In this document: positions 1,740 to 33,468 of the stretch, piece by piece
How positions within the stretch are numbered: position 1 is the stretch's first letter
How the letters are laid out: each line of letters opens with the position of its first letter
DNA from: an uncultured Acidobacteriota bacterium
GTDB taxonomy: Bacteria > Acidobacteriota > CAIWXX01
NCBI GenBank assembly: GCA_903916735.1
Contig: CAIWXX010000097.1
Coordinates: 1 to 48,418, forward strand
Direction of reading: 5' to 3'
Length of the DNA: 48,418 nucleotides
Notes under the pieces: model-generated
Told to the model about the DNA's origin: nothing
The model's database searches: none
Seen by the model: the letters and a program-made list of their open reading frames with translations, nothing else
Translations under genes and position numbers: made by a program

Positions 1740-1985
1740 GTGACTGCGGATCTACTGACGATCCACCCCTGATTCTGTCACAAATCGCTTGAAGAGTAAG
1801 CAATAATTGCAGGGTGAGGAATTGTCGTGGGCGCGAAGAGCCAAGCCGAATTTTTCAACCATCGATGAGCGCTGATATTTCACAACTCGATCGGTGTTCA
1901 TCCACTATTCTTCTTTCTGACCTTACTGAAGGATCTTTGGCTGTATACATCAGGAAATTTATTGCACTTCAGTCCGGCGTTGAAT

Positions 1986-2678
1986 TTATCGGTCCGGACG
2001 TTTGTCGGGTTCTCTGACTTCAATCCGAGTCGGTTTATCGAGGAGCGTCAGAAGCGCCTTGTTGAGTTTCAACACGGCCACGATGGCTTTTCTTGCAAAC
2101 TTGATTTTCATACCGAGCGATATGCGAGACATGATTTCCACCATTTCCACATCATCTTCCGGCGATTCGAATTCGGGAAGTCTGTCATCGACACCGTCCA
2201 TGATGACGCGAATGACGGCGACGGGTATTCCATACTTCTTCCCAATCTCCGCTATCGCTCCCGACTCCATATCGACGCACAGCGCGCCGGTCTGCTTGAA
2301 TATTTCAGTGCGTGCGATGCGAGATCCGACGACCTTTGACGAACAATACACCGGTCCTTCAAGGTACGGAACTTGGGAAAGATGGACACGGGCCGTCTCA
2401 TATTCGGCATCGCCGAAAAGAACCTTCGTCGCCATGATGATCTTGCCGGCGAGCAGATCTCCAGTCAGCGCGCCCGAGACGCCTGTGCTTAAGATCAGAG
2501 ATGGGCTCGGCCTCGTTTCAAGCACCTCTCGCAGTTTTCGCCTTGCGAAATGAACTCCGATTCCAGTAATACAGACCTCCACATTTTTTAAGACCATGAA
2601 GATTTCGGACTTTGTCGCGGCTACGATCAGGATGTCGCGACGACCAATTTCTCTGGCGAAACTTACGGCATGAGGCAT
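1986..2678 (-). CDS. Nucleoside phosphorylase/nucleosidase family protein (MTAN- or HpnG-like)
   Basis: This 230-aa protein belongs to the PNP/UDP phosphorylase fold. An N-terminal strand carries ILIVAATKSE. The glycine-rich STGVSGAL segment lies near residue 65, the base/ribose-binding motif CVDMESGAIAE near residue 134, and the catalytic-region aspartate in RVIMD about 20 residues further. Relatives cleave purine nucleosides such as methylthioadenosine or adenosylhomocysteine, or act as the hopanoid-associated nucleosidase HpnG. The sequence does not decide among these. The tail after residue 180 is longer and more basic than in MTAN. The gene stands alone between atpZ and ppdK, on the same strand as both. 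Confidence 0.7.
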   Translation of the reverse strand: MPHAVSFAREIGRRDILIVAATKSEIFMVLKNVEVCITGIGVHFARRKLREVLETRPSPSLILSTGVSGALTGDLLAGKIIMATKVLFGDAEYETARVHLSQVPYLEGPVYCSSKVVGSRIARTEIFKQTGALCVDMESGAIAEIGKKYGIPVAVIRVIMDGVDDRLPEFESPEDDVEMVEIMSRISLGMKIKFARKAIVAVLKLNKALLTLLDKPTRIEVREPDKRPDR

Positions 2679-2721
2679 CTGTAGCTCAGTTCGCTAACGC
2701 TTGGGCCACGCGCGTTGAGCA

Positions 2722-2746
2722 AAAATGCCCCGGAAGGGCTCCAGAG
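2722..2746 (-). terminator. Possible weak intrinsic terminator after ppdK
   Basis: Read on the minus strand downstream of ppdK, a short GCCC/GGGC hairpin with a five-base loop is followed by ATTTTTG. The stem is short, so it is only a candidate. It would separate ppdK from the nucleosidase gene. Confidence 0.3.
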
Positions 2747-2804
2747 GCTCCTCTGTCGCCCTCCCAGGGCTCTGCAATTTTCCTCGTGGATTTATTTCGA
2801 ATCC

Positions 2805-5540
<2,736 letters not shown>

Positions 5541-6346: not shown

Positions 6347-8154
6347 ATCTTACCGTCCAGCCGACCGATCGTTTGATTGGCTTCGCGCATGAGCTTTTCC
6401 ATAGAGCTCACTCCGGGTTGGCCGGCGCCGAAGAGGCCATACTCGGCATCATTCCAGAGCGATTGGAAACGCTGTTGCAACTCAGGCTCGATCCGCCTCT
6501 CTTCCAACTGGTCCAAGACACTCTGCAGGGTCAGTCCTTGAGCCGAGAGTGAGAGCTTGTGAGCAGCATAGCGAGCCAGACTGTCGGTCAGAAGGTGATA
6601 GAACAATTTCGCATCTGTGGGATTGACCAAGGTGCGCGCCTTTTTGATTGATTTCTTGAATTGGCTGTAGGCCCTGTTTCGCAGATAAGATGCCAGATCG
6701 GTTTGTCTGCTTTCTCGATGCCGCCGGTATGCAAATGCGACGACATTAACGAGTGGTGGGAGAATGATCCAGAGATAGGCCAGGAATGATTGTGCAGAGG
6801 CTGGGCGGATCCCTTCACTTTCATTCGTGTGGATGAAGGAGATGTCCTGCCGGAGAGCTCGCAATTGGGATCGGTCGTCACCGGTGACTGGAGTTGTAAC
6901 GAGCTGACCGCCTTCAACTTTCAGTGTCAGCGTTCTCGTCTGCGCAATTCGATACTCTCGCCGGGCGGGGTCGAAGAACGGTAAAGAAATGGAACCAATC
7001 TGGTTCGTGCCCTTTACCTTTGGGCTCAGGACGTATTCCCAACTTTTCTCGCCCTCCATGAAGGCTCCGGTTAGGGAGATTTTTTCCGTGTATTTCGGCT
7101 CATATATCTTGAAATCGTCGAGTGGCGGAAGAGTCGGTGCGGCAATCGTCTTGAGATTTCCACGACCTGAAATTGTGATCGTGAGGGCCGCGACATCACC
7201 CAGTGCAACCGTCGAGCGGTCGAGTTGCGCAGAGATCGAATAGGAACCGATGATGCCGTCAAAATTCGCCGGCCGGTTTCCTTGTGGGAGAGGAAGCACA
7301 TCCAGGACCAACGCCTTCGATTGGCGTTTGATAGATTGAGGACCACTGAAAACCCCGCCGCCGGATTCAGTCTGAATAGCTAGAGTGGCCGGGCCGATTG
7401 TGAATCGGCCAGGATGCGTGGGGAAGAGGGCGTTCCGTTTGATGAGGAATTCCACATACTCCTGCCCATTGATGTTGACCCGTTTGCCTGACGGGTTCTT
7501 ATCGACTTGAAGATCTTCCACCCAGAATCCGGTGAGCACCGGGAAGTCGTCGATTTGAATACCGGCGATGCTGACCTGAGTGAGAATTTTCAGGGTCATC
7601 ATGGCCTGTTGACCCTGATAGACCTGCTTCCGGTCAAGCTCGCCGACAAGCTGAATTGATTCGGGACCATAACGTCGGCCGGTTGGATGCTCATTCTCAA
7701 ATGGATTGAAGAATGGTGACCATGGACTCTGCTGTTGCTTCGATGCCGTTCCCATCGAACCGGCGACAACTTCGATGTCGACCGGTGATGTCCGATATTC
7801 TTTTCCCGCGTAGTTCAAGCGAACCGGCGGAATGGTGAACTTGCCGGCCCTTTTTGGAGTGAGCGAGTAGATGATACTGCGAGACGAGGAGACTTTCCCG
7901 TTGATAAAACTAATGTTGGATGATTGGGATTGCCCGACTATGTCGAAATCATTCAGGTCAGGCATAATTGGATTGATGCTTTCGTTCAGGTTGGCCCCGG
8001 AGATCGTCACAGTCAGGGCCAGGGTATCGTCGAGGCCGATCTTCTGATTGTCGACTTCGGCTGTGAAAGTGATGTCTTCGGCGATGAGGGCGAGCGGGAA
8101 CGGCGGCAACAGAGTTATCAATGCCAGAAGGCAGAAGAAATATATGCGGCTCAT
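6343..8154 (-). CDS. batD: BatD-like oxygen tolerance protein
   Basis: BatD is an envelope protein usually made with the MoxR ATPase and von Willebrand proteins BatA/BatB. This copy is 603 aa. It has an N-terminal signal peptide (MSRIYFFCLLALITLL...), then beta-sandwich repeats beginning with ITFTAEVDNQKIGLDDTL. A single membrane helix lies near residues 455-475 (AYLWIILPPLVNVVAFAY), followed by a basic cytoplasmic helical domain. I chose the ATG at 8154 because it gives a clean signal peptide; the track start 11 codons upstream does not. No moxR, batA or batB lies next to it in this window. Confidence 0.85.
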   Translation of the reverse strand: MSRIYFFCLLALITLLPPFPLALIAEDITFTAEVDNQKIGLDDTLALTVTISGANLNESINPIMPDLNDFDIVGQSQSSNISFINGKVSSSRSIIYSLTPKRAGKFTIPPVRLNYAGKEYRTSPVDIEVVAGSMGTASKQQQSPWSPFFNPFENEHPTGRRYGPESIQLVGELDRKQVYQGQQAMMTLKILTQVSIAGIQIDDFPVLTGFWVEDLQVDKNPSGKRVNINGQEYVEFLIKRNALFPTHPGRFTIGPATLAIQTESGGGVFSGPQSIKRQSKALVLDVLPLPQGNRPANFDGIIGSYSISAQLDRSTVALGDVAALTITISGRGNLKTIAAPTLPPLDDFKIYEPKYTEKISLTGAFMEGEKSWEYVLSPKVKGTNQIGSISLPFFDPARREYRIAQTRTLTLKVEGGQLVTTPVTGDDRSQLRALRQDISFIHTNESEGIRPASAQSFLAYLWIILPPLVNVVAFAYRRHRESRQTDLASYLRNRAYSQFKKSIKKARTLVNPTDAKLFYHLLTDSLARYAAHKLSLSAQGLTLQSVLDQLEERRIEPELQQRFQSLWNDAEYGLFGAGQPGVSSMEKLMREANQTIGRLDGKI

Positions 8155-8639
8155 TGTATCCCTACTCAAAACGGAAATTATTAGCACAGCGCATGCCGAA
8201 CCGTCAACGCATGTCAGTCGGCTCTCATCCCGTTGCCTTCAATTTGCAGTTGAGATTCTCGTGGCAGGAGTAAAGATTGAGCAGACTCTTCAGCGCCCCC
8301 ACCTCTCTGCACCGCGACTCCTCTGCAGCTACCAAAATATCACCCATTTGGATTAGTATGGCACATAACAACCGGCAGACTCCAGGGGTGTTGCTGGATC
8401 GGATGTCCATCAGAAAAATTGCACACTAAAACTATGGCGCATTGAACCGAACCACTGATGAGCTCGGATACGCGGCATCCGATTCGTATTCATCCAAGTT
8501 CATCTGAGGTTTCAAAGTTTCTTCCTTGCCGGCAACAATTTTGTCGCACACCCAGTTGGATCAAGGAAAGGGGGAAATGGGTATCGCTCGGGATTCTTGG
8601 CCGAGGTATCGAGTGTGTCTGATTCTGCCATTTCCGGAT
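8155..8639. other. Intergenic region without recognised gene
   Basis: These 485 bp separate batD from the downstream end of the HerA-like gene. I found no open frame with family features, no RNA gene and no clear repeat. The batD promoter should lie in its left part on the minus strand, but no strong match to a consensus was found. Confidence 0.5.
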
Positions 8640-10088
8640 TTATCTGCCGCCGAAAAGCGATCCAAACACCCCGCGGATGATCTGCCGCCCGACCTGGCTG
8701 CCGATTGAACGAGCGGCGCTTTTGGCCAGGATTTCCATGACGCCGTCCGGCTGCCGCCCAATCCTCTGTGGCGGGGCCGGTTTCGGAGGAGCCATTGTCG
8801 AGGCAACGCGCTGTTCGGCCTTCGCCTTCAATTTTTCATAAGCCGATTCGCGATCGATCAATTTCTCATAGCGGCCGTAGGCAATGGATCCATGGATGAT
8901 TTGCTGACGTTGCCCGGCATCAATCGGCCCGATCTGGCTGTGCGGCGGGCAGATCCATGCGCGGTCAACCACCCCGGGAGTGCCCTTTTCATCCAGGAAC
9001 GAGACGAGTGCTTCTCCGACGCCGAGCTCGGTGATGCACTTTTCAACATCGATCTTTGGGTTGCTCCGGAATGTATCCGCTGCTGCGCGCACGGCCTTCT
9101 GATCGCGCGGTGTAAAGGCTCGTAGCGCGTGCTGAATACGATTCCCCAGTTGCCCAAGCACAACATCCGGCAGATCCAACGGATTCTGGCTGACGAAGTA
9201 GACTCCAACCCCCTTCGATCGGATAAGGCGAACAACTCGCTCAATGGTCTCTTCAAGAGCTTTGGGGATGTCGTTGAAGAGGAGATGAGCTTCGTCGAAA
9301 AAGAAAACCAGTCGCGGCTTCTCGAGATCACCGACTTCCGGCAAGCGTTCGAAGAGCTCGGCCAGCAGCCAGAGCAGGAAGGCAGCGTAGATTTTTGGAT
9401 ACTGAATCAGCTTATCGGCGGCCAGAATGTTGATGACACCTCGTCCGTCCAGACCTGTTTGAATGAAGTCCGTCAAACTTAATGCCGGTTCGCCGAAGAA
9501 CGCCCCACCACCGGCTTCTTCCAGCGAGATCAGCCCTCGCTGAATCGTTCCGATGGTGGCCGGGGAAATGTTTCCATAGGCCGTTGTGAATGAACGGGCA
9601 TTCTCTCCAGCATACTGCAATATCGCTCGGAGATCCTTGATGTCGAGCAAAAGAAGGCCGCTGTCGTCGGCGATTTTGAATATGAGCGTCAGGACACTGT
9701 CCTGTGTCTCATTTAAATCGAGGAGACGGCCGAGGAGGAGTGGGCCCATTTCAGAAATAGTCGTCCTCACAGGATGCCCCTGCTCGCCGAATACATCCCA
9801 GAAGTCCGCCGGGCAATTTGAAAACGAAAAGTCGACAAGGCCCAGTTTTTGAATACGGTCGGCGATTCGAGGGTTGGGAAATCCGGGACGGCTGATACCA
9901 GACAAATCCCCCTTGACATCCGCCATGAACACTGGAACACCGATCCGGCTGAATTGCTCAGCCAGCACCTGCAGGGACACGGTCTTGCCGGTCCCGGTCG
10001 ATCCCGCGATCAAACCATGACGATTGGCCATCCCAGGCAACAGATTGAGATCGACTTCACCCTTGGCGATTAAAAGCGGTTGTGCCAT
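8640..10088 (-). CDS. HerA-like/DUF853 ATPase (YjgR family)
   Basis: This is a 482-aa P-loop ATPase of the HerA/FtsK-like DUF853 family. The Walker A motif GSTGTGKT is at residues 29-36 and the Walker [13 protein letters not shown] is around 255-265. The family segment [19 protein letters not shown] follows, and the C-terminus contains a typical proline/alanine-rich linker. Relatives such as E. coli YjgR are poorly characterised; a role in DNA translocation or repair is inferred from HerA. The long upstream extension of the frame is not plausible. The ATG at 10088 has a strong GGGAGGGG ribosome site and starts [10 protein letters not shown], as in the family. Confidence 0.88.
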
Positions 10089-10328
10089 TTTCCCCTCCCA
10101 CCTTTTGGCAGAATCCTTTCCAATCTTATCATGTCGGCCAAATTCACTACATGCCTCGTACGGGTTGCCGAAATCCACATTTCTCCATCTTGAACCTCTC
10201 ATCCTTGTTCCTCCGCGTTCTCGCTTGTTCACACGAGATCCACCAAATCGGGCCGGGAATGGGTTTCGCGATTGGAATATCGGCAGGTTGAGATGTCGAG
10301 TCGCAGATCGGGGGTCATAGACAAGGTC

Positions 10329-10357
10329 TTGCAAAACGCGCATGCTTTGGCTAAAGT
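10329..10357 (+). promoter_or_regulatory. Sigma70-type promoter for tRNA-Val(CAC)
   Basis: TTGCAA at 10329-10334 and TAAAGT at 10352-10357 are separated by exactly 17 bp. The implied start site lies only a few bases before the mature tRNA 5' end at 10370, as is usual for single tRNA genes. Confidence 0.5.
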
Positions 10358-10369
10358 CTATCGCGCCGT

Positions 10370-10444
10370 GGGCGATTAACTCAGCGGTAGAGTGCTACTT
10401 TCACACGGTAGAAGTCAGAGGTTCAAGTCCTCTATCGCCCACCA
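10370..10444 (+). tRNA. tRNA-Val (anticodon CAC)
   Basis: A complete cloverleaf is visible. The 7-bp acceptor GGGCGAT/ATCGCCC, a D arm ACTC/GAGT, the anticodon stem CTACT/GGTAG with loop TTCACAC (anticodon CAC), and a T arm AGAGG/CCTCT with loop TTCAAGT are all present. The 3' CCA is encoded at 10442-10444. It reads valine codon GTG. Confidence 0.95.
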
Positions 10445-10542
10445 CGCCAAAAAAACTCCTGCATCAGATTCACCCTCCGGCAATACAAGCCTCGGCTTTC
10501 CACTTCCATGAAGAGCCTCACCGAAACTGGAAAGTGTCAACC

Positions 10543-11169
10543 TTACTTCCGGATGCTGTCGGAGAAATGCTTTGTCTTGTACTCCTCGAGAAGTTCCAGT
10601 GTTTTCGGTTTACATTGCCCGCAGACGGTGCCGATCTTTGTGTGTTCCTGCAGCTCGGCATAAGTCCGGGCTCCTTCAAGCACGGCATTTTCGATCTCCT
10701 CATCTGTCACGCCCACGCACTGACAGATGATATGCGCCTTTTGTTGCTTGACCTTGTCGAACATGCCCTGCCGCGCATAGTAATCGTCGATCGCGGCTCG
10801 CAGTGCTTTGTCGCCAAGAACCGAACAATGGATCTTGTGTTCAGGAAGCCCGCCAAGCTCCCGTTCAATATCCTTGGAGGTCAGTCCGTAGGCGCTGTCA
10901 AGCTTCATCCCTTTCGCCAATTCAGAGAGGATGGATGTGCTTGCAATGGCGCTGGCACATCCGTATGTTTTCCACCGGATATCAGAGACCGTGCCTTTTT
11001 CCTTGTCGACCTTGATGAGGAGGATCATTTCGTCGCCGCACTTGATATTGCCGACAACCCCTCGGGCATCCTCATCGAAAACTTCATCGTCCTGGAGGAC
11101 ATTCTTCGGGTGTATGAAGTGCTCTTTTACTTTTTCGGTATAGACCCACGCCGGGCCTTGCGTTGTCAT
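10543..11169 (-). CDS. nifU: NifU-like Fe-S cluster scaffold with BFD-type [2Fe-2S] domain
   Basis: This scaffold (208 aa) receives sulfur from the cysteine desulfurase encoded just upstream and assembles Fe-S clusters. The N-terminal IscU-like domain (about residues 10-130) has the three ligand cysteines in NIKCGDE, KTYGCASAIAS and HKIHCSVLG. The C-terminal BFD-like domain has ICQCVGVTDEEI and TVCGQC, i.e. the CxC...CxxC pattern of the permanent cluster in NifU. The third domain (Nfu) of full NifU is absent, so this is the shorter two-domain form. The gap to nifS is 12 bp, so the pair forms an operon. Confidence 0.92.
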   Translation of the reverse strand: MTTQGPAWVYTEKVKEHFIHPKNVLQDDEVFDEDARGVVGNIKCGDEMILLIKVDKEKGTVSDIRWKTYGCASAIASTSILSELAKGMKLDSAYGLTSKDIERELGGLPEHKIHCSVLGDKALRAAIDDYYARQGMFDKVKQQKAHIICQCVGVTDEEIENAVLEGARTYAELQEHTKIGTVCGQCKPKTLELLEEYKTKHFSDSIRK

Positions 11170-11181
11170 GTTTTTCCTCCG

Positions 11182-12366
11182 TTATTTATGCATGTATGCA
11201 GATGACATCTTCCTCACACGTGAGATGGTCTCGAGGAGATTATCAACGACATAATCGATATCTTCCCTTGTGTTGTCCCTGCCCATGCTCATTCTGATGG
11301 AGCCGTGTGCCTGCTCCGCTTCCAGGCCGATCGCCAGCAGTACGTGAGATGGATCAAGCGAGCCGGAAGCGCAGGCGGAGCCCGTCGATACAGCGATTCC
11401 TGCAAGATCGAGATAAAGCAATATAGCCTCTCCCTCGGCTCCCATGAATGAAGCATTCAGCGTCCCGGGGAGTGAATCAATCGGGTGGCCGTTGAAAGAG
11501 ACATCGGGTATTCTCTTTTCTATTCCGGCCCTCAGAAGGTTTTTTAGCCCCAGGAGTCTGTCGTGCTCGGCCTTCATCTCGATCTTTCTCATCTCGACGG
11601 CCTTGCCGAGCCCGATGATGCCCAGCGTGTTCTCGGTTCCCGCGCGCATTCCACGTTCCTGATGTCCGCCTCTGATGAAGGGGCAGAAGGGAACGCCCTT
11701 TTTCACATACAGTGCGCCGACACCTTTCGGTCCGTAGATTTTGTGCCCGGAAAACGAAAGGTAATCTATTTTGAGGTCATCGACGTTCATCGGCAACTTG
11801 CCCACCAATTGAACGGCGTCGGTGTGGAAAAGCGCACCCTTTTGATGAACGATTTCAGAGATCCTTTTCATATCCTGAATTGTGCCGACCTCATTGTTCG
11901 CGGCCATGACTGAAACAACCGCCGTCGCATCGCTGATTGCATGTTCAAGCTGGTCGAGATCAATCTTCCCGTATTTATCGACACCGATGTACTTAACCTC
12001 TTCGCCTTTCTGCGCGAGGCAGGCTGCAGTTTCAAGCACGCATGGATGCTCGATTTTCGTCGTGATGATCTCCCTTTTTCTGTTGACGGGACATTCGCAC
12101 CCGTGCGACGGGCAGCTGATGGTATTAAGGACCGTGTTGTTCGCTTCCGAGCCGCTGCCTACGAAGATGAGTTCTTCAGGCTTAGCCCCGATGAAAGATG
12201 CGATCATCTCGCGAGCGTTCTCGACGAGTGCCTTGGCTTCCCTTCCGAATGAATGCATGCTCGAAGGGTTGCCATAAGCCTCCATTGCCTGGAGAAGGGT
12301 TTTCTTGACCTCCGGATGAAGGGGGGTTGTCGCGTTATGATCCATGTAGACTTTTCGTTCAGCCAT
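11182..12366 (-). CDS. nifS: Cysteine desulfurase, NifS/IscS family
   Basis: This PLP enzyme (394 aa) converts cysteine to alanine and hands a persulfide to the NifU-like scaffold downstream. Lys209 in SFSGHKIYGPKG binds PLP. Catalytic Cys332 lies in STGSACASGS, the longer active-site loop of group I (NifS/IscS) enzymes. The N-terminus MAERKVYMDHNATTPLHPEV is standard. A GGAGGAAAG ribosome site lies just before the ATG. No iscR-like regulator or hscBA genes are nearby, so this is a minimal two-gene system. Confidence 0.95.
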   Translation of the reverse strand: MAERKVYMDHNATTPLHPEVKKTLLQAMEAYGNPSSMHSFGREAKALVENAREMIASFIGAKPEELIFVGSGSEANNTVLNTISCPSHGCECPVNRKREIITTKIEHPCVLETAACLAQKGEEVKYIGVDKYGKIDLDQLEHAISDATAVVSVMAANNEVGTIQDMKRISEIVHQKGALFHTDAVQLVGKLPMNVDDLKIDYLSFSGHKIYGPKGVGALYVKKGVPFCPFIRGGHQERGMRAGTENTLGIIGLGKAVEMRKIEMKAEHDRLLGLKNLLRAGIEKRIPDVSFNGHPIDSLPGTLNASFMGAEGEAILLYLDLAGIAVSTGSACASGSLDPSHVLLAIGLEAEQAHGSIRMSMGRDNTREDIDYVVDNLLETISRVRKMSSAYMHK

Positions 12367-29009: not shown

Positions 29010-30437
29010 ATGAAACAGTTCCGCCTTCCATTCTTCCTGACCCTTTTCTTTTGTATAGTGCTTTGTTTTTCAGTTTCGGTTGAGGCACAAATTGGACCCG
29101 ACAGAGGCGAAGCCTTTAAGGTGCAGGGGGATATCGACCCTTATGAGGTTACTCTTTATCGAAGTGCAGGCTACGCTGATCCGATCGGGACATGGAAACT
29201 TTCACTCGGCATGCGAATGCTGAAAATTCCGGATATTGGCGGCACTCCCAGATCCATGCTCCTGGGCTCCAAGGTCCGGGCGTTGCTGTTCCCCAGAAGT
29301 GATTTTTCTGCACTCTTGGGGCAGGACTTTGTGTATCGGGATCCCTTTCCTTACATCAAGGTTTTGAATTCAACGCCAGATCTGCAATATACTGGCGAGT
29401 CACTTATTATCCATCGTAAAGACATATCTGATTTCATTGGTGTTTATCTGCTATCAGGACCATCAGATACCTCTGCGGGTGAATTCTATCCGCTACCCGA
29501 GAAGGCCGACGAATCGGCGATAATCTATCATAAAATATCTTACGGAGGGCCGTTCATTGTGGAGTTTATTCATGGCGGTGCTGATACAGGCTTGGCTATG
29601 CAGTGGTCGCCTAACTCCCGCAGCCTTTATGAAATGGAAGTCAACATAACGTCCGACAATGGGGTCACACTGAGGTTGCCGGACCCCGATGGATACAGCA
29701 TTATTAAGGGGTACCCCTTCGATCTTGCAAAATATAAGGTTGGACGGATTTCCTCTATGTACATTCAATACAAAGGGCCATATACTGCACAGTCATACCT
29801 GGATATTAGCCGCGAACGGGCGCCGGCGGCTCCCGACTCGGTCCCTGCAGAGCCGTCTTTGTCTGCGGCAGCGGTCAATGTTGCTGGAACCTGGCAGAGC
29901 GGCGCAGGAGCCGTCTACGAGTTCCAGCAGAAGGGGGCCACGTTTACCTGGACCTCGGCCGCATTGGGACAGCAGGGCTCTGGCGCGGTGAACGGAAAGG
30001 CCGTCACCACCCAGTGGACGGGTAGCGGCGGATCCGGATCGGCGACGGGACAGATCACCCAGATCAACTCCGCCGGATTGGCATCATGCATCGAGTGGAA
30101 CAACGGCGTGTCCTTTATCCGGCCGCTCGATCGCCTGGTTGGATCCACGACGCTGGTCCCGGCAGAGCAACTCCAGTCGGCAGTGGTTGATGTCTCCGGG
30201 CCGTGGAAAGGGCCGATGGGTGCCGCCTATCAGTTCACCCAGAACGGCGCTCAGTTCAGCTGGACGGTCGCGCTGACGGGTGAGAAGGCGACCGGAACCA
30301 TGACCGGGATGGACGTAACTGCCCAGTGGTCGGGGCCGGTGGGCCAGGGATCGGCTAAGGGCACGATCGCCAAAGTAGACCCGGGCGGCAGGGCGAGCAG
30401 GATTGAATGGTCCAACGGCGTGGTGTTTGTCCGTTGA
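29010..30437 (+). CDS. Secreted protein with two tandem C-terminal beta repeats, function unknown
   Basis: I do not recognise this 475-aa protein. Residues 1-25 are a signal peptide (MKQFRLPFFLTLFFCIVLCF...). Residues 30-280 form an unclassified domain. Residues about 288-372 and 392-475 are tandem copies of one unit: VNVAGTWQSGAGAVYEF...ASCIEWNNGVSFIR and VDVSGPWKGPMGAAYQF...ASRIEWSNGVVFVR. The alternation of hydrophobic and small residues suggests a beta barrel or sandwich, such as an MLTR/lipocalin-like fold. The ATG at 29010 has a CCAGGAGGTAATCG ribosome site and starts a proper leader. The frame stays open 58 codons upstream through repeat R1, which I regard as coincidental. The ribosome site directly follows R1, so R1 may act as its leader. 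Confidence 0.72.
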   Translation: MKQFRLPFFLTLFFCIVLCFSVSVEAQIGPDRGEAFKVQGDIDPYEVTLYRSAGYADPIGTWKLSLGMRMLKIPDIGGTPRSMLLGSKVRALLFPRSDFSALLGQDFVYRDPFPYIKVLNSTPDLQYTGESLIIHRKDISDFIGVYLLSGPSDTSAGEFYPLPEKADESAIIYHKISYGGPFIVEFIHGGADTGLAMQWSPNSRSLYEMEVNITSDNGVTLRLPDPDGYSIIKGYPFDLAKYKVGRISSMYIQYKGPYTAQSYLDISRERAPAAPDSVPAEPSLSAAAVNVAGTWQSGAGAVYEFQQKGATFTWTSAALGQQGSGAVNGKAVTTQWTGSGGSGSATGQITQINSAGLASCIEWNNGVSFIRPLDRLVGSTTLVPAEQLQSAVVDVSGPWKGPMGAAYQFTQNGAQFSWTVALTGEKATGTMTGMDVTAQWSGPVGQGSAKGTIAKVDPGGRASRIEWSNGVVFVR

Positions 30438-30489
30438 GCGTCGCGCCTTGCCGTCGTATGTAAACCGGATGAACTCCTGGCGGGCGCGT

Positions 30490-30696
30490 CGAGGCGACCA
30501 GGCCAATGGCAATCCCCACGGCGACCGGCACCAACCCCTCGACAATGACCATCCAGCGAACGCGCCACGTGCCGGCGCCCAATGCGATGCGGACTCCGAT
30601 CTCACGGGTCCGGCGGCTCACCGAGTACGACAAGAGGCCGTATAGATCCATGGCAGCCATGACGAGCTCAAGACCCGCCCCCCCAGGGTCAACGCG
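30490..30696 (-). pseudogene. ADOP-type FtsX permease fragment, distal part
   Basis: On the minus strand, codons give MAAMDLYGLLSYSVSRRTRE followed by IGVRIALGA and GLVPVAVGIAIGLVAS. This is the last-but-one membrane block of MacB/FtsX permeases in the style of acidobacterial ADOP proteins. A run of seven G near 30679 puts the ALTLGG stretch before it in another frame. The upstream continuation lies at 33400-33468, beyond the transposon. Confidence 0.75.
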
Positions 30697-30716
30697 CTAG
30701 CCGTTTACTTAGGGTG

Positions 30717-30745
30717 TTGACAACTTGCCCTGTATACCCTATAAT
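30717..30745 (+). promoter_or_regulatory. Consensus sigma70 promoter at the transposon left end
   Basis: TTGACA (30717-30722) and TATAAT (30740-30745), both perfect, are spaced by 17 bp. The -35 box starts just inside the terminal inverted repeat. The promoter reads into the transposase, whose ATG is 20 bp after the -10 box. Confidence 0.85.
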
Positions 30746-30765
30746 ATGTACGATGGACAAGGGCT

Positions 30766-32535
30766 ATGGAATCGGACGTGCTGCGGAAGAAATCTTCTGG
30801 AGAATCCCATGAGCGAATCCCCGTGCAAACGGGCGGCGTCCAGGTCAACTTCTGCAAGAACCCTGTTTGCAAGAACTTCGGCATCCCCGCGAAGGAATCC
30901 TTGTCCAAGGGCAAGAAGGACGCGTACGGGCTCGACACGACGGGGCGGAGCCTGCGGCCCGCTCTCGTATGTTCCGGATGTGGCGAGAAGTTCCCAGTAA
31001 AGAGCAACCTCGGCATCGCTGAGGAGACTGGGCGACTCGCCAGGGAGCTACACGAGCGGCCCGAGCCATCATGCCCCAATGAACCGTGTGTGAACCATGC
31101 AGTTCCGGTGAAGGCTGGTTCTTCCGCATACCACTCCTTCGGGAAGACGCATTCGGGGTCGCATCGTTACAAGTGCAAGGCTTGCAAGCGGACCTTCGCC
31201 GTGGGCACATCCACAGTGCGCCAGAGACACCCACACAAGAACAAGACAGTGTTCCTGCTTTTGATGAACAAGAGTCCCTTCCGGCGGATCTGCGAGGTTG
31301 CCCGAGTCAACCCGAAGACGCTGATGCGGGACAAGATCGAGTTTATTCACCAACAGTGTCTTGCATTCGGGGCGGATCGGGAAAGCGCCCTTCTCGATGC
31401 GATGCCCATACGTCGGCTCTACCTGAGCACGGATCGTCAGGATTATGTGGTGAACTGGACCCACAGAGAGGACCGCCGAAACGTCGTTCTCCATGCCGTC
31501 TCGACGGCAGACAACGCCACCGGCTACGTCTTCGGGACGCATCTCAACTACGACGCGACGCTCGATGCGGATGCGATAGAAGCCGAAGCGGAGAAGATCG
31601 GCGATGCTTCCAAGAAAGGCCCTTACAAGCGCTACGCCCGCCTCTGGCTGAAACGGGACTACATGGAGGCTCTTGCATCCCGCAACGGGCGCAAGAAAGT
31701 GGCTGGCAGCCTTCTCAGAGACGTGGAAGCCTCCTATGCCGAGTGCGCGGCGAGAGATGACGTTGAGGAATTCGAAACGCAGGACACGAGCAGGCGGCTT
31801 CCAGCCAAGGGTATGCAGGTCCATGCCGAGTACACGCTGTACGCGCACTTCATGTTTCTGCGCAAGCTCTTCTCGGGTGTTGAGAAAACGCGGTTCTTTC
31901 TCGATCAGGATTCGGGCATGCGTGCGGCTTGCCTCTCGGCGTTCTGGCGTGAGATCAAGGCCCGGCGCTGCGATGCGTTCTTCGTGCGGATCGCCAAGGA
32001 CAAGACTGTGAACGAGAAGCGGGCATTGGTCGCGAAACGCCGGGATGAATTCGAGTTGGCGAAGTTGGGCCACCCCGGTCTCACTGACTGCGAACTCAAA
32101 ACGCTTCTGATGAAAGACCGGCTGGGCGCGGCCCGCGAGATCGGAAGGTGGCGCGACCGATGGATCGTCCATCCCCTGCCGGACATGAGCGAGCCCGAGA
32201 AGGCGGTATGTTATCTGACTGACTACGGAGACTATGACGAGGACCACCTGGCGCGGCTGTTGTGCAAGGCGAGCTTGCATGGAACTGACCGGTTTCTCAT
32301 GCAGGTGAGAAGGCGACTGTCGTTGCTGGAACGGCCCATCGCCACGGCGAACAACGACAGGCGGCTTTGGCACGGCTACGCGGCGTACAATCCGGCAATG
32401 GTCGGGAAGATGCTCGGGATCTTCCGTGTGTTCTACAACTACTGTCTCGCCGGGGAAGACAAGAAGACTCCGGCGCAGCGACTCGGACTCACCAAGGCCA
32501 GGGTCGAACTCGAAGACATCATCTATTTCAAGTGA
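30766..32535 (+). CDS. Putative DDE transposase with two zinc-ribbon segments
   Basis: This 589-aa protein fills two thirds of the transposon and is its likely recombinase. The N-terminal part has cysteine pairs in FCKNPVCKNFG and CSGCGEKF, then CPNEPCVNH and RYKCKACKRTFAVG. This is the InsA/IS1-type zinc-ribbon arrangement that binds transposon ends, here duplicated. A helix-turn-helix-like region follows near residues 165-190. Candidate catalytic acids are Asp in YLSTDRQDYVV, Asp in FFLDQDSGMRA and Glu in YNYCLAGEDKKTPAQRLGL near the C-terminus, but the DDE assignment is inferred. It reads intact from start to stop, so the element may be active. Confidence 0.75.
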   Translation: MESDVLRKKSSGESHERIPVQTGGVQVNFCKNPVCKNFGIPAKESLSKGKKDAYGLDTTGRSLRPALVCSGCGEKFPVKSNLGIAEETGRLARELHERPEPSCPNEPCVNHAVPVKAGSSAYHSFGKTHSGSHRYKCKACKRTFAVGTSTVRQRHPHKNKTVFLLLMNKSPFRRICEVARVNPKTLMRDKIEFIHQQCLAFGADRESALLDAMPIRRLYLSTDRQDYVVNWTHREDRRNVVLHAVSTADNATGYVFGTHLNYDATLDADAIEAEAEKIGDASKKGPYKRYARLWLKRDYMEALASRNGRKKVAGSLLRDVEASYAECAARDDVEEFETQDTSRRLPAKGMQVHAEYTLYAHFMFLRKLFSGVEKTRFFLDQDSGMRAACLSAFWREIKARRCDAFFVRIAKDKTVNEKRALVAKRRDEFELAKLGHPGLTDCELKTLLMKDRLGAAREIGRWRDRWIVHPLPDMSEPEKAVCYLTDYGDYDEDHLARLLCKASLHGTDRFLMQVRRRLSLLERPIATANNDRRLWHGYAAYNPAMVGKMLGIFRVFYNYCLAGEDKKTPAQRLGLTKARVELEDIIYFK

Positions 32536-32553
32536 CGGGGAAGGCGATGACAC

Positions 32554-32811
32554 ATGCGATGTGAATTTGGAGTGCCTTTTTGGAGCTACGGACCGAATGA
32601 TGCCATTCCGTCCGATGTGATAATCGAGCACGTGCTTCTATTTAGACAAGTTGAGGATATGTTGCGAGTTGTAACCAGGTTCGGTTACGACCGCTGTCTC
32701 GATGTTTTCAAGAAAGCCGTCTTGACACAGAAACGCCGTTTCCCGATAGCGGTTTCCTTATCAGAGGAGGTCATGAATGCCCTTGCAACATCTCAACCCC
32801 GGTGCCATTAG
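32554..32811 (+). CDS. Small antitoxin-like protein (DUF6922-type)
   Basis: This 85-aa protein has FWSYGPNDAIPSDVIIEHVLL near the N-terminus and then QVEDMLRVVTRFGYDRCLDVFKK. The W-x(n)-I/L-E-HVL...GD/QVEDxxxLxxxFG pattern resembles short proteins encoded directly upstream of AbiEii-family nucleotidyltransferases (DUF6922 type). In those pairs the small protein is thought to be the antitoxin. The gene overlaps the start of the nucleotidyltransferase gene by 35 bp, so the two are translationally coupled. It begins 18 bp after the transposase stop and has no promoter of its own that I can see. Confidence 0.6.
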   Translation: MRCEFGVPFWSYGPNDAIPSDVIIEHVLLFRQVEDMLRVVTRFGYDRCLDVFKKAVLTQKRRFPIAVSLSEEVMNALATSQPRCH

Positions 32812-33373
32812 TCTCCTGCGAGTACTATCGAAACAAGACTACATCAGCAAGTTCGTATTGGTGGGCGGCAGTGCAATGGCATTCCACCTGGGTCATCGCA
32901 GATCGGAAGACTTGGATTTTTTCACGGGGGAGGGGGATTTTCGTCCACGCACTATTGATCAATGGATCAAGAGACTGTTTCCTGGTGCCTCGCAACTCTT
33001 GGCAGAAAGTACAAAACTCAACTGCCTCGTCGGCGAAACAAAACTCACTTTCTACGACCTGTTCGTCACTATGCAAGACATTTGCTCTCTATCCTGCGTC
33101 ATTGAATTGGCAAAGTCTAACTTTACGGATTTTAATCCGCGATTTTTCCTCGGGCAAATCCTGTATCTTGACGACATCCCGCCCGACGACACAATATGGG
33201 AACCGAAGTACCCTATGTCCAGGGAAGATTTTCGTGGCTTTTTCGTACAACGTGTGCAGAAATACACTCTATCTCTTCAACTAGCTCCCAAGGCTCCGGA
33301 ACCTTCCCATTCCCAACCCGATGCCGACGGGACTCCCAAGCATCGATTTAGCATCCAACCGGCATTACTATGA
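32777..33373 (+). CDS. AbiEii-like nucleotidyltransferase, toxin-like, possibly internally deleted
   Basis: This is a 198-aa protein of the AbiEii/DUF1814 nucleotidyltransferase family. The catalytic motif appears as FVLVGGSAMAFHLGHRRSED with LDFF, i.e. GGS followed by DLD. The conserved DLF...ICSL helix and FFLGQILYLDD are further on. In relatives about 40 residues separate the KLTF strand from the DL(Y/F)xLL helix, and include the third catalytic acid region (xIAAMKLxAI). Here KLTFYDLF is fused directly, which may impair activity. The C-terminus after residue 165 is an unusual Pro/Ser/His-rich tail ending 26 bp from the transposon end. A strong GAGGAGG ribosome site lies 6 bp before the ATG. 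Confidence 0.7.
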   Translation: MPLQHLNPGAISLLRVLSKQDYISKFVLVGGSAMAFHLGHRRSEDLDFFTGEGDFRPRTIDQWIKRLFPGASQLLAESTKLNCLVGETKLTFYDLFVTMQDICSLSCVIELAKSNFTDFNPRFFLGQILYLDDIPPDDTIWEPKYPMSREDFRGFFVQRVQKYTLSLQLAPKAPEPSHSQPDADGTPKHRFSIQPALL

Positions 33374-33399
33374 CTTACACACCTTTAGTAAACGGCTAG

Positions 33400-33468
33400 G
33401 GTCAACGCGTAGAACCGCGGCGATCCGATCGGATCGAACTCCGTAAAGAGACCGCCGACCATGAGGAT
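33400..33468 (-). pseudogene. ADOP-type FtsX permease fragment, proximal part
   Basis: Minus-strand codons read MVGGLFTEFDPIGSPRFYALT, the segment that precedes the LYGxLSYSVSxRTREIG block in FtsX-like permeases. The ALT codons are the 10-bp target duplication. The rest of the gene upstream is replaced by the RAYT remnant starting at 33469. Confidence 0.7.

Follow-up and report, generated by a model that had tools for sequence, protein, structure and literature searches.

The window analyzed here, a stretch of 48,418 nucleotides from an uncultured Acidobacteriota bacterium, contains a complete transposon of 2703 bp at positions 30697–33399, with coordinates that can be read directly in the sequence. 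It is bounded by terminal inverted repeats at 30697–30719 (left, + strand, bearing the family motif CNAGSC-N11-GTGTTG) and 33377–33399 (right, − strand), and comparison of the left end (CTAGCCGTTTACTTAGGGTGT) with the reverse complement of the right end (CTAGCCGTTTACTAAAGGTGT) shows 19 identical bases out of 21. Immediately beyond the two ends, at 30687–30696 and 33400–33409, stands the 10-bp sequence GGTCAACGCG, an exact target site duplication. Reading inward is a sigma-70 promoter (TTGACA-17-TATAAT; 30717–30745, + strand) that matches the consensus at 12 of 12 positions. Here, as in the majority of close relatives, the inner bases of the inverted repeat form part of the −35 box, and the promoter would drive the gene for a 589-aa transposase (30766–32535, + strand), the frame of which is unbroken and lies inside the repeats. 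Two passenger genes follow. The near-perfect 21-bp ends, target duplication, perfect consensus promoter, and intact single transposase had all been recorded in the first-pass annotation, and each is borne out. The structure is beyond chance, as its end motif, 9–10-bp duplications, and transposase recur in >20 other delimited copies.

The element interrupts the remnant of a FtsX/ADOP-type permease gene (assigned by eye from a translation of the rejoined flanks), one part of which occupies 30355–30696 on the − strand and the other part of which lies to the right of 33400. Also by eye, a small REP-type/IS200-like transposase gene has left remnants between 33400 and 33900, where the reading frame of the permease gene shifts at a run of G. 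A search of the genome's contigs yielded one full copy of the element and no others. Contig C136 has a short copy of 177 bp that shares these ends and is flanked by an imperfect 9-bp duplication, and contig C182 has a truncated element end. Since these are non-autonomous derivatives, their presence suggests that the family moved in this genome in the past.

The transposase begins with two zinc-ribbon segments, as originally proposed for this protein, defined by two sets of Cys pairs (C30/C35/C69/C72 and C103/C108/C137/C140), followed by a helix-turn-helix (HTH) region at approximately residues 156–210 and a RNase-H-like core. In an alignment of 18 transposases, the Cys residues of both segments are invariant, and so are three aspartates: D223 (codon at 31432–31434), D380 (31903–31905), and D508 (32287–32289), all on the + strand. 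An AlphaFold2 model built from 13 sequences (pLDDT 82, pTM 0.83) showed an RNase-H-like order of elements, with core strands at residues 217–231, 238–249, 255–260, 374–380, and 402–409 and a helix at 505–517. The model places D223 in the middle of the first strand, D380 at the end of strand 374–380, and D508 on the helix, and thus locates a putative catalytic D-D-D triad, as had been hoped of a predicted structure. By hhalign, the protein matches an IS1-type transposase (E = 3e-6) in a region that reaches from the zinc ribbon through the HTH to the first Asp strand, and D223 falls within the stretch aligned to that strand. Top PDB matches by Foldseek include the transposases of Mu, Tn5, and ISCth4; at E-values of 0.01–0.06, none of them below 0.001, and with low global TM-scores, they are supportive of the fold rather than proof of it. 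A PDB sequence search with the transposase profile returned zinc-finger look-alikes only. The protein is related to IS1 in its zinc-ribbon/HTH region and, judging by conservation and the model, would have a RNase-H-type catalytic core.

Relatives of the transposase are 29–59% identical to it and occur mainly in Pseudomonadota, with the nearest (57–59%) in Pseudomonadota and Methylomirabilota. Homologues were found at 18 loci of the genome collection and in 131 plasmid records. About seven close, full-length genes occur in 398 sampled Pseudomonadota genomes. Within the element's own phylum, a full-length copy is confined to the genome of the window (one of 297), and two further weak matches cover the zinc region alone. 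No match was found in viral contigs searched with the transposase alignment; two matches in phages are both of the dfrG-transposon type. Likewise, each Gram-positive match examined proved to be the dfrG-transposon transposase; this transposon has the registered name Tn7491.

About 25 other copies, ranging in size from 174 bp to 8.3 kb, have the same ends and duplications. The delimited copies share a 23-bp repeat of the form CNAGSC-N11-GTGTTG, looser in distant members, and 9–10-bp duplications. In most close members the −35 box is supplied by TTGA at the inner side of the left repeat, with the −10 box 16–18 bases further on. A strong leader hairpin (z below −2.5) is found in 15 of 20 members, for instance at about 5906–5945 of L015, either covering the point where transposase transcription begins or lying shortly after it; T-runs accompany it in some members (L014, L025, L072). 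Such a hairpin may shield the transposase gene from outside transcription or substitute for a terminator split by the insertion. The window copy has no leader hairpin (z +0.9).

Several derived or distant forms were also encountered. MITE-like derivatives of 174–279 bp with family ends are present in three genomes (L036 at 1516–1692, L085, L087, L090, and L091), and those of Paraburkholderia and Rhodoferax are located in terminator hairpins. In L003 (4000–7794), two non-identical copies lie back to back with one common duplication, GGGCGAATCT, which also flanks a third end in the same genome (L097); no tRNA genes were found as targets at L003 or L097. Vibrionaceae homologues of about 500 aa and 27% identity (L027, L074–L077, L079, L080, and L107) retain all eight zinc cysteines, have lost the three putative catalytic Asp residues, and are without inverted repeats. 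The one in Salinivibrio is flanked by deoD and hdfR and carries the annotation "lactate dehydrogenase". Judged by sequence, these look like a domesticated, catalytically dead transposase. Two distant homologues are larger: one of 783 aa (L016, 5395–7746), in which, by eye, the transposase seems to be joined at its N-terminus to a DnaQ/DEDDh exonuclease, and one within an 858-aa frame (L078, about 1922–4496).

The region downstream of the transposase varies widely among family members. Copies with repeats and a duplication that consist of the transposase gene only are known from L003 (first copy, 1911 bp), L007 (1934 bp), L015 (2014 bp), L022 (2010 bp), L025 (2043 bp), and L026 (1886 bp). Restriction-modification (RM) genes occupy the region in six of 14 cargo-bearing elements, and the six systems all differ: a Type IIG system in L005 (5397 bp), a D12-class methylase with a NotI-type enzyme in L068 (4066 bp), a methylase with a BsuBI/PstI-type enzyme in L069 (4573 bp), a methylase with a restriction-enzyme-like protein in L070 (4002 bp), an N6-methylase with a specificity (S) subunit in L071 (5199 bp), and a Type III system in L096 (8258 bp; same locus as L008). 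Other cargo includes Fic (L010, 2694 bp), a beta-lactamase-fold protein (L013, 3836 bp), a weak TnsA-like gene (L014, 2779 bp), a hydrolase-like gene (L072, 2996 bp), a gene with no assigned family (L073, 2834 bp), and dfrG in Tn7491. In L088 (2600 bp), a degenerate transposase is accompanied by a nucleotidyltransferase gene beside a gene that appears HEPN-like by eye. These counts come from a small sample, drawn in part from metagenome-assembled genomes. Since right ends were not found for L002, the second L003 copy, L004, L012, L016, and L023, their neighboring genes were not counted as cargo. At L023, on a Polaromonas plasmid, a Mokosh-like MkoC helicase gene (PADLOC, E = 2e-157; 7798–12042) directly follows the family transposase.

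Because relatives hold nothing, RM systems, Fic, dfrG, or other genes at this position, the sequences indicate that the contents of the slot behind the transposase gene can be exchanged. Direct evidence of exchange comes from L068, L069, and L070, which form one clade (support 99/97) and bear non-homologous restriction systems. The general idea of selfish or defense cargo in such elements, put forward from the window copy, holds at the level of the family, given its RM genes. Cargo of this kind would render the element beneficial, or its loss costly.

The closest described relative is Tn7491, the dfrG transposon, first seen inside the Tn916-type element Tn6198 and present in Listeria, Staphylococcus, and Enterococcus. 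Its transposase is homologous to that of the window over residues 25–589 (25.6% identity, E = 7e-36, 96% of length), it combines one transposase with one cargo gene, and its repeats follow a similar pattern (TAAGTAGTTCAG...) with a 9-bp duplication (PMC10763498). Both elements have AG at repeat positions 3–4, plus several further shared bases, and duplications of 9–10 bp. Tn7491 differs in having a small additional ORF upstream of its transposase and different cargo, and the identity is just about 25%. The first-pass annotation knew of no described IS family with this layout. This is partly right: Tn7491 combines a transposase of 25% identity with similar ends and a single cargo gene. The transposase of the window belongs to no Pfam family.

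Among insertion sequences, the IS1 family shares several traits, and it could be argued that the element is an ordinary IS1 member whose transposase has grown and which picked up a passenger by chance. In favor of this, the N-terminal zinc ribbon and HTH that precede the catalytic domain, and the start of the core, are IS1-like, and the repeats (about 23 bp) and duplications (9–10 bp) are close to the short repeats and roughly 9-bp duplications of IS1. However, the transposase, at 589 aa, is much longer and has an additional Cys segment, its triad may be D-D-D rather than D-D-E, and the curated IS1 model (NCBIfam NF033558) matches residues 119–189 only (E = 5e-9), at 36 bits against a cut-off of 100. 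Cargo genes and hairpin targeting also set the window's family apart from IS1, and since cargo recurs across the family, that of the window is not a single chance passenger. Ordinary IS1 membership is therefore unlikely. The element is a real, intact transposon of a probably undescribed family that is distantly related to IS1 and Tn7491.

Other known systems share individual traits. The IS1595 family has a zinc ribbon as well, its model NF050000 matching the transposase weakly, under the cut-off. The ISXO2-type domain of IS1595 gave no Pfam match at E ≤ 1. Passenger genes are frequent in IS1595 elements, and their duplications are 8 bp long, in contrast to 9–10 bp here. Tn7-like transposons with defense cargo are likewise vehicles for varied defense and resistance genes, but they employ several proteins and dedicated target selectors, whereas a single transposase is present here. 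Group IIC introns aim at terminator-type stem-loops, as the family does, but these introns, which work through a ribozyme and a reverse transcriptase, lack inverted repeats and insert next to the stem.

Target choice was assessed at 26 insertion sites rebuilt by rejoining the flanks, with stems centered on the duplication scored against 6240 nearby background positions. L024, with perfect repeats 6082 bp apart and no duplication, was left out of these statistics. A gapless stem score of ≥10 was reached at 11 of the 26 sites and at 0 of the 6240 background positions, and a score of ≥6 at 14 sites versus 3.8% of the background. The Fisher-combined probability is 5e-12, with the sites treated as independent and the background positions within one site overlapping. 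Judged by folding energy, 16 of the 26 duplications are located in a strong, mostly terminator-like hairpin, their sites ranking in the top 8% of local windows for stability. In most of these hairpins the stem is preceded by A-runs and followed by T-runs, as is typical of bidirectional terminators; examples are aaaaagccccGCATAAGCGgggcttttt (L071) and aaaaagcgcggtgGCAATCAGGCcaccgcgctttttt (L085). By eye, seven of seven further two-ended copies from three genomes sit in such hairpins, and a copy of Tn7491 on a S. aureus plasmid also lies in a terminator-like hairpin loop. A second, published copy is inserted between the convergent genes csbB and saeS (PMC10763498).

Exceptions without a clear terminator are the window copy, which lies in the permease-gene remnant and not in a terminator hairpin, L005, L007, L026, L069 (weak), L073, the 177-bp copy of the window's own genome, and one Tn7491 copy. 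The preference is therefore not absolute and cannot be claimed for the window copy. As a family tendency, the statistics show that members prefer the loops of terminator-type hairpins, mostly between genes. A search of open-licence papers for terminator-aimed transposons returned no report for this type of element.

Such a pattern might also arise through survival bias, if other insertions kill or burden the host and small intergenic hairpins simply lie at terminators. The sites are indeed mostly intergenic and often between convergent genes. Survival does not, however, require that the 9–10-bp duplication be placed over a hairpin loop, and within a given stretch, stems fall on the duplication much more often than on neighboring positions. 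Moreover, some members do sit in genes (the window copy, L007, and L026). We regard survival bias as a distinctly improbable account. The preference probably arises because the transposase recognizes a palindrome or extruded hairpin, and insertion in terminator hairpins spares coding genes.

The passengers of the window copy are modular in composition, with a GC content of 48.5% versus 59% for the transposase. The first is an 85-aa ORF (32554–32811, + strand) that had been called a DUF6922-type antitoxin. It gave no Pfam match to DUF6922 at E ≤ 1; the label of putative antitoxin stands by position and weak alignment, since homologous AbiEii genes have a DUF6922 gene at the same place (E = 2e-18 in L106 and 8e-4 in L101). 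The second, which overlaps the first, encodes a 198-aa AbiEii-like nucleotidyltransferase (32777–33373, + strand). Its assignment agrees with a match to PF08843 (E = 1e-7), although this covers residues 13–67 only, or profile positions 2–59 of 238. A search upstream for an AbiEi antitoxin gave no match, the DUF6922-like ORF being present there instead, and a PDB sequence search with the AbiEii-like protein returned chance matches only.

Motifs I and II are found in the AbiEii-like protein (VGG...EDLD, residues 29–47), and a motif search found neither motif III nor motif IV. Residues 6–94 align with residues 6–91 of the L101 homologue and residues 107–155 with its residues 147–195; approximately 43 residues therefore appear to be missing between residues 94 and 107 (33059–33096, + strand). 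L101 has both motifs III and IV, and motif IV is also found in L105 and L106. Each of these motifs is required, as mutation of either abolished AbiEii toxicity (PMC3985639). With the segment that holds them missing, the window protein is probably inactive and non-toxic, unless the gap is an assembly error. That the pair works as an addiction module and aids persistence of the element, as first suggested, is very doubtful: the pair lies inside the repeats, its genes overlap, homologous pairs exist in L101 and L106, and motifs I and II are intact, but motifs III and IV are gone, and no homologues of either passenger were found in related elements, which have the same ends without the pair. This is the outcome that the first-pass annotation had named as speaking against its reading, and the pair is apparently not a regular part of such elements.

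Taken together, the evidence argues with good confidence for an autonomous, IS1-related DDD transposon with an exchangeable cargo slot, a family-wide preference for hairpin loops, and, in the window copy, a toxin that is probably inert. A single transposase, with its zinc-ribbon/HTH region and RNase-H-type core (putative D-D-D), would move the element, which has 23-bp ends (CNAGSC...GTGTTG) and makes 9–10-bp target duplications, and the inner end of the repeat would serve as the −35 box of the transposase promoter. Recognition of a palindrome or extruded hairpin by the transposase would direct insertion into the loop of a terminator. The slot downstream of the transposase takes up unrelated genes, often RM or toxin-antitoxin-like, and is empty in some copies; the window copy has taken up a DUF6922/AbiEii pair whose toxin is without motifs III and IV. 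Somewhat less securely, though on balance favored, these elements constitute an undescribed one-protein DDD family that uses the terminator hairpin as its landing site, carries interchangeable RM and toxin-antitoxin cargo, and brings its own leader hairpin.

The target preference and RM cargo are more interesting findings than the passenger pair. Aiming at terminator loops would provide a simple transposon with harmless intergenic sites nearly everywhere, and the family lends itself to studying how DNA hairpins are recognized by a lone DDE-type enzyme. A transposase profile combined with the end motif and a 9–10-bp duplication provides a recipe for delimiting further elements, the transposases of which are mostly annotated as hypothetical. 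The family may also carry RM systems from one replicon to another, as well as the trimethoprim resistance gene dfrG in Gram-positive bacteria.
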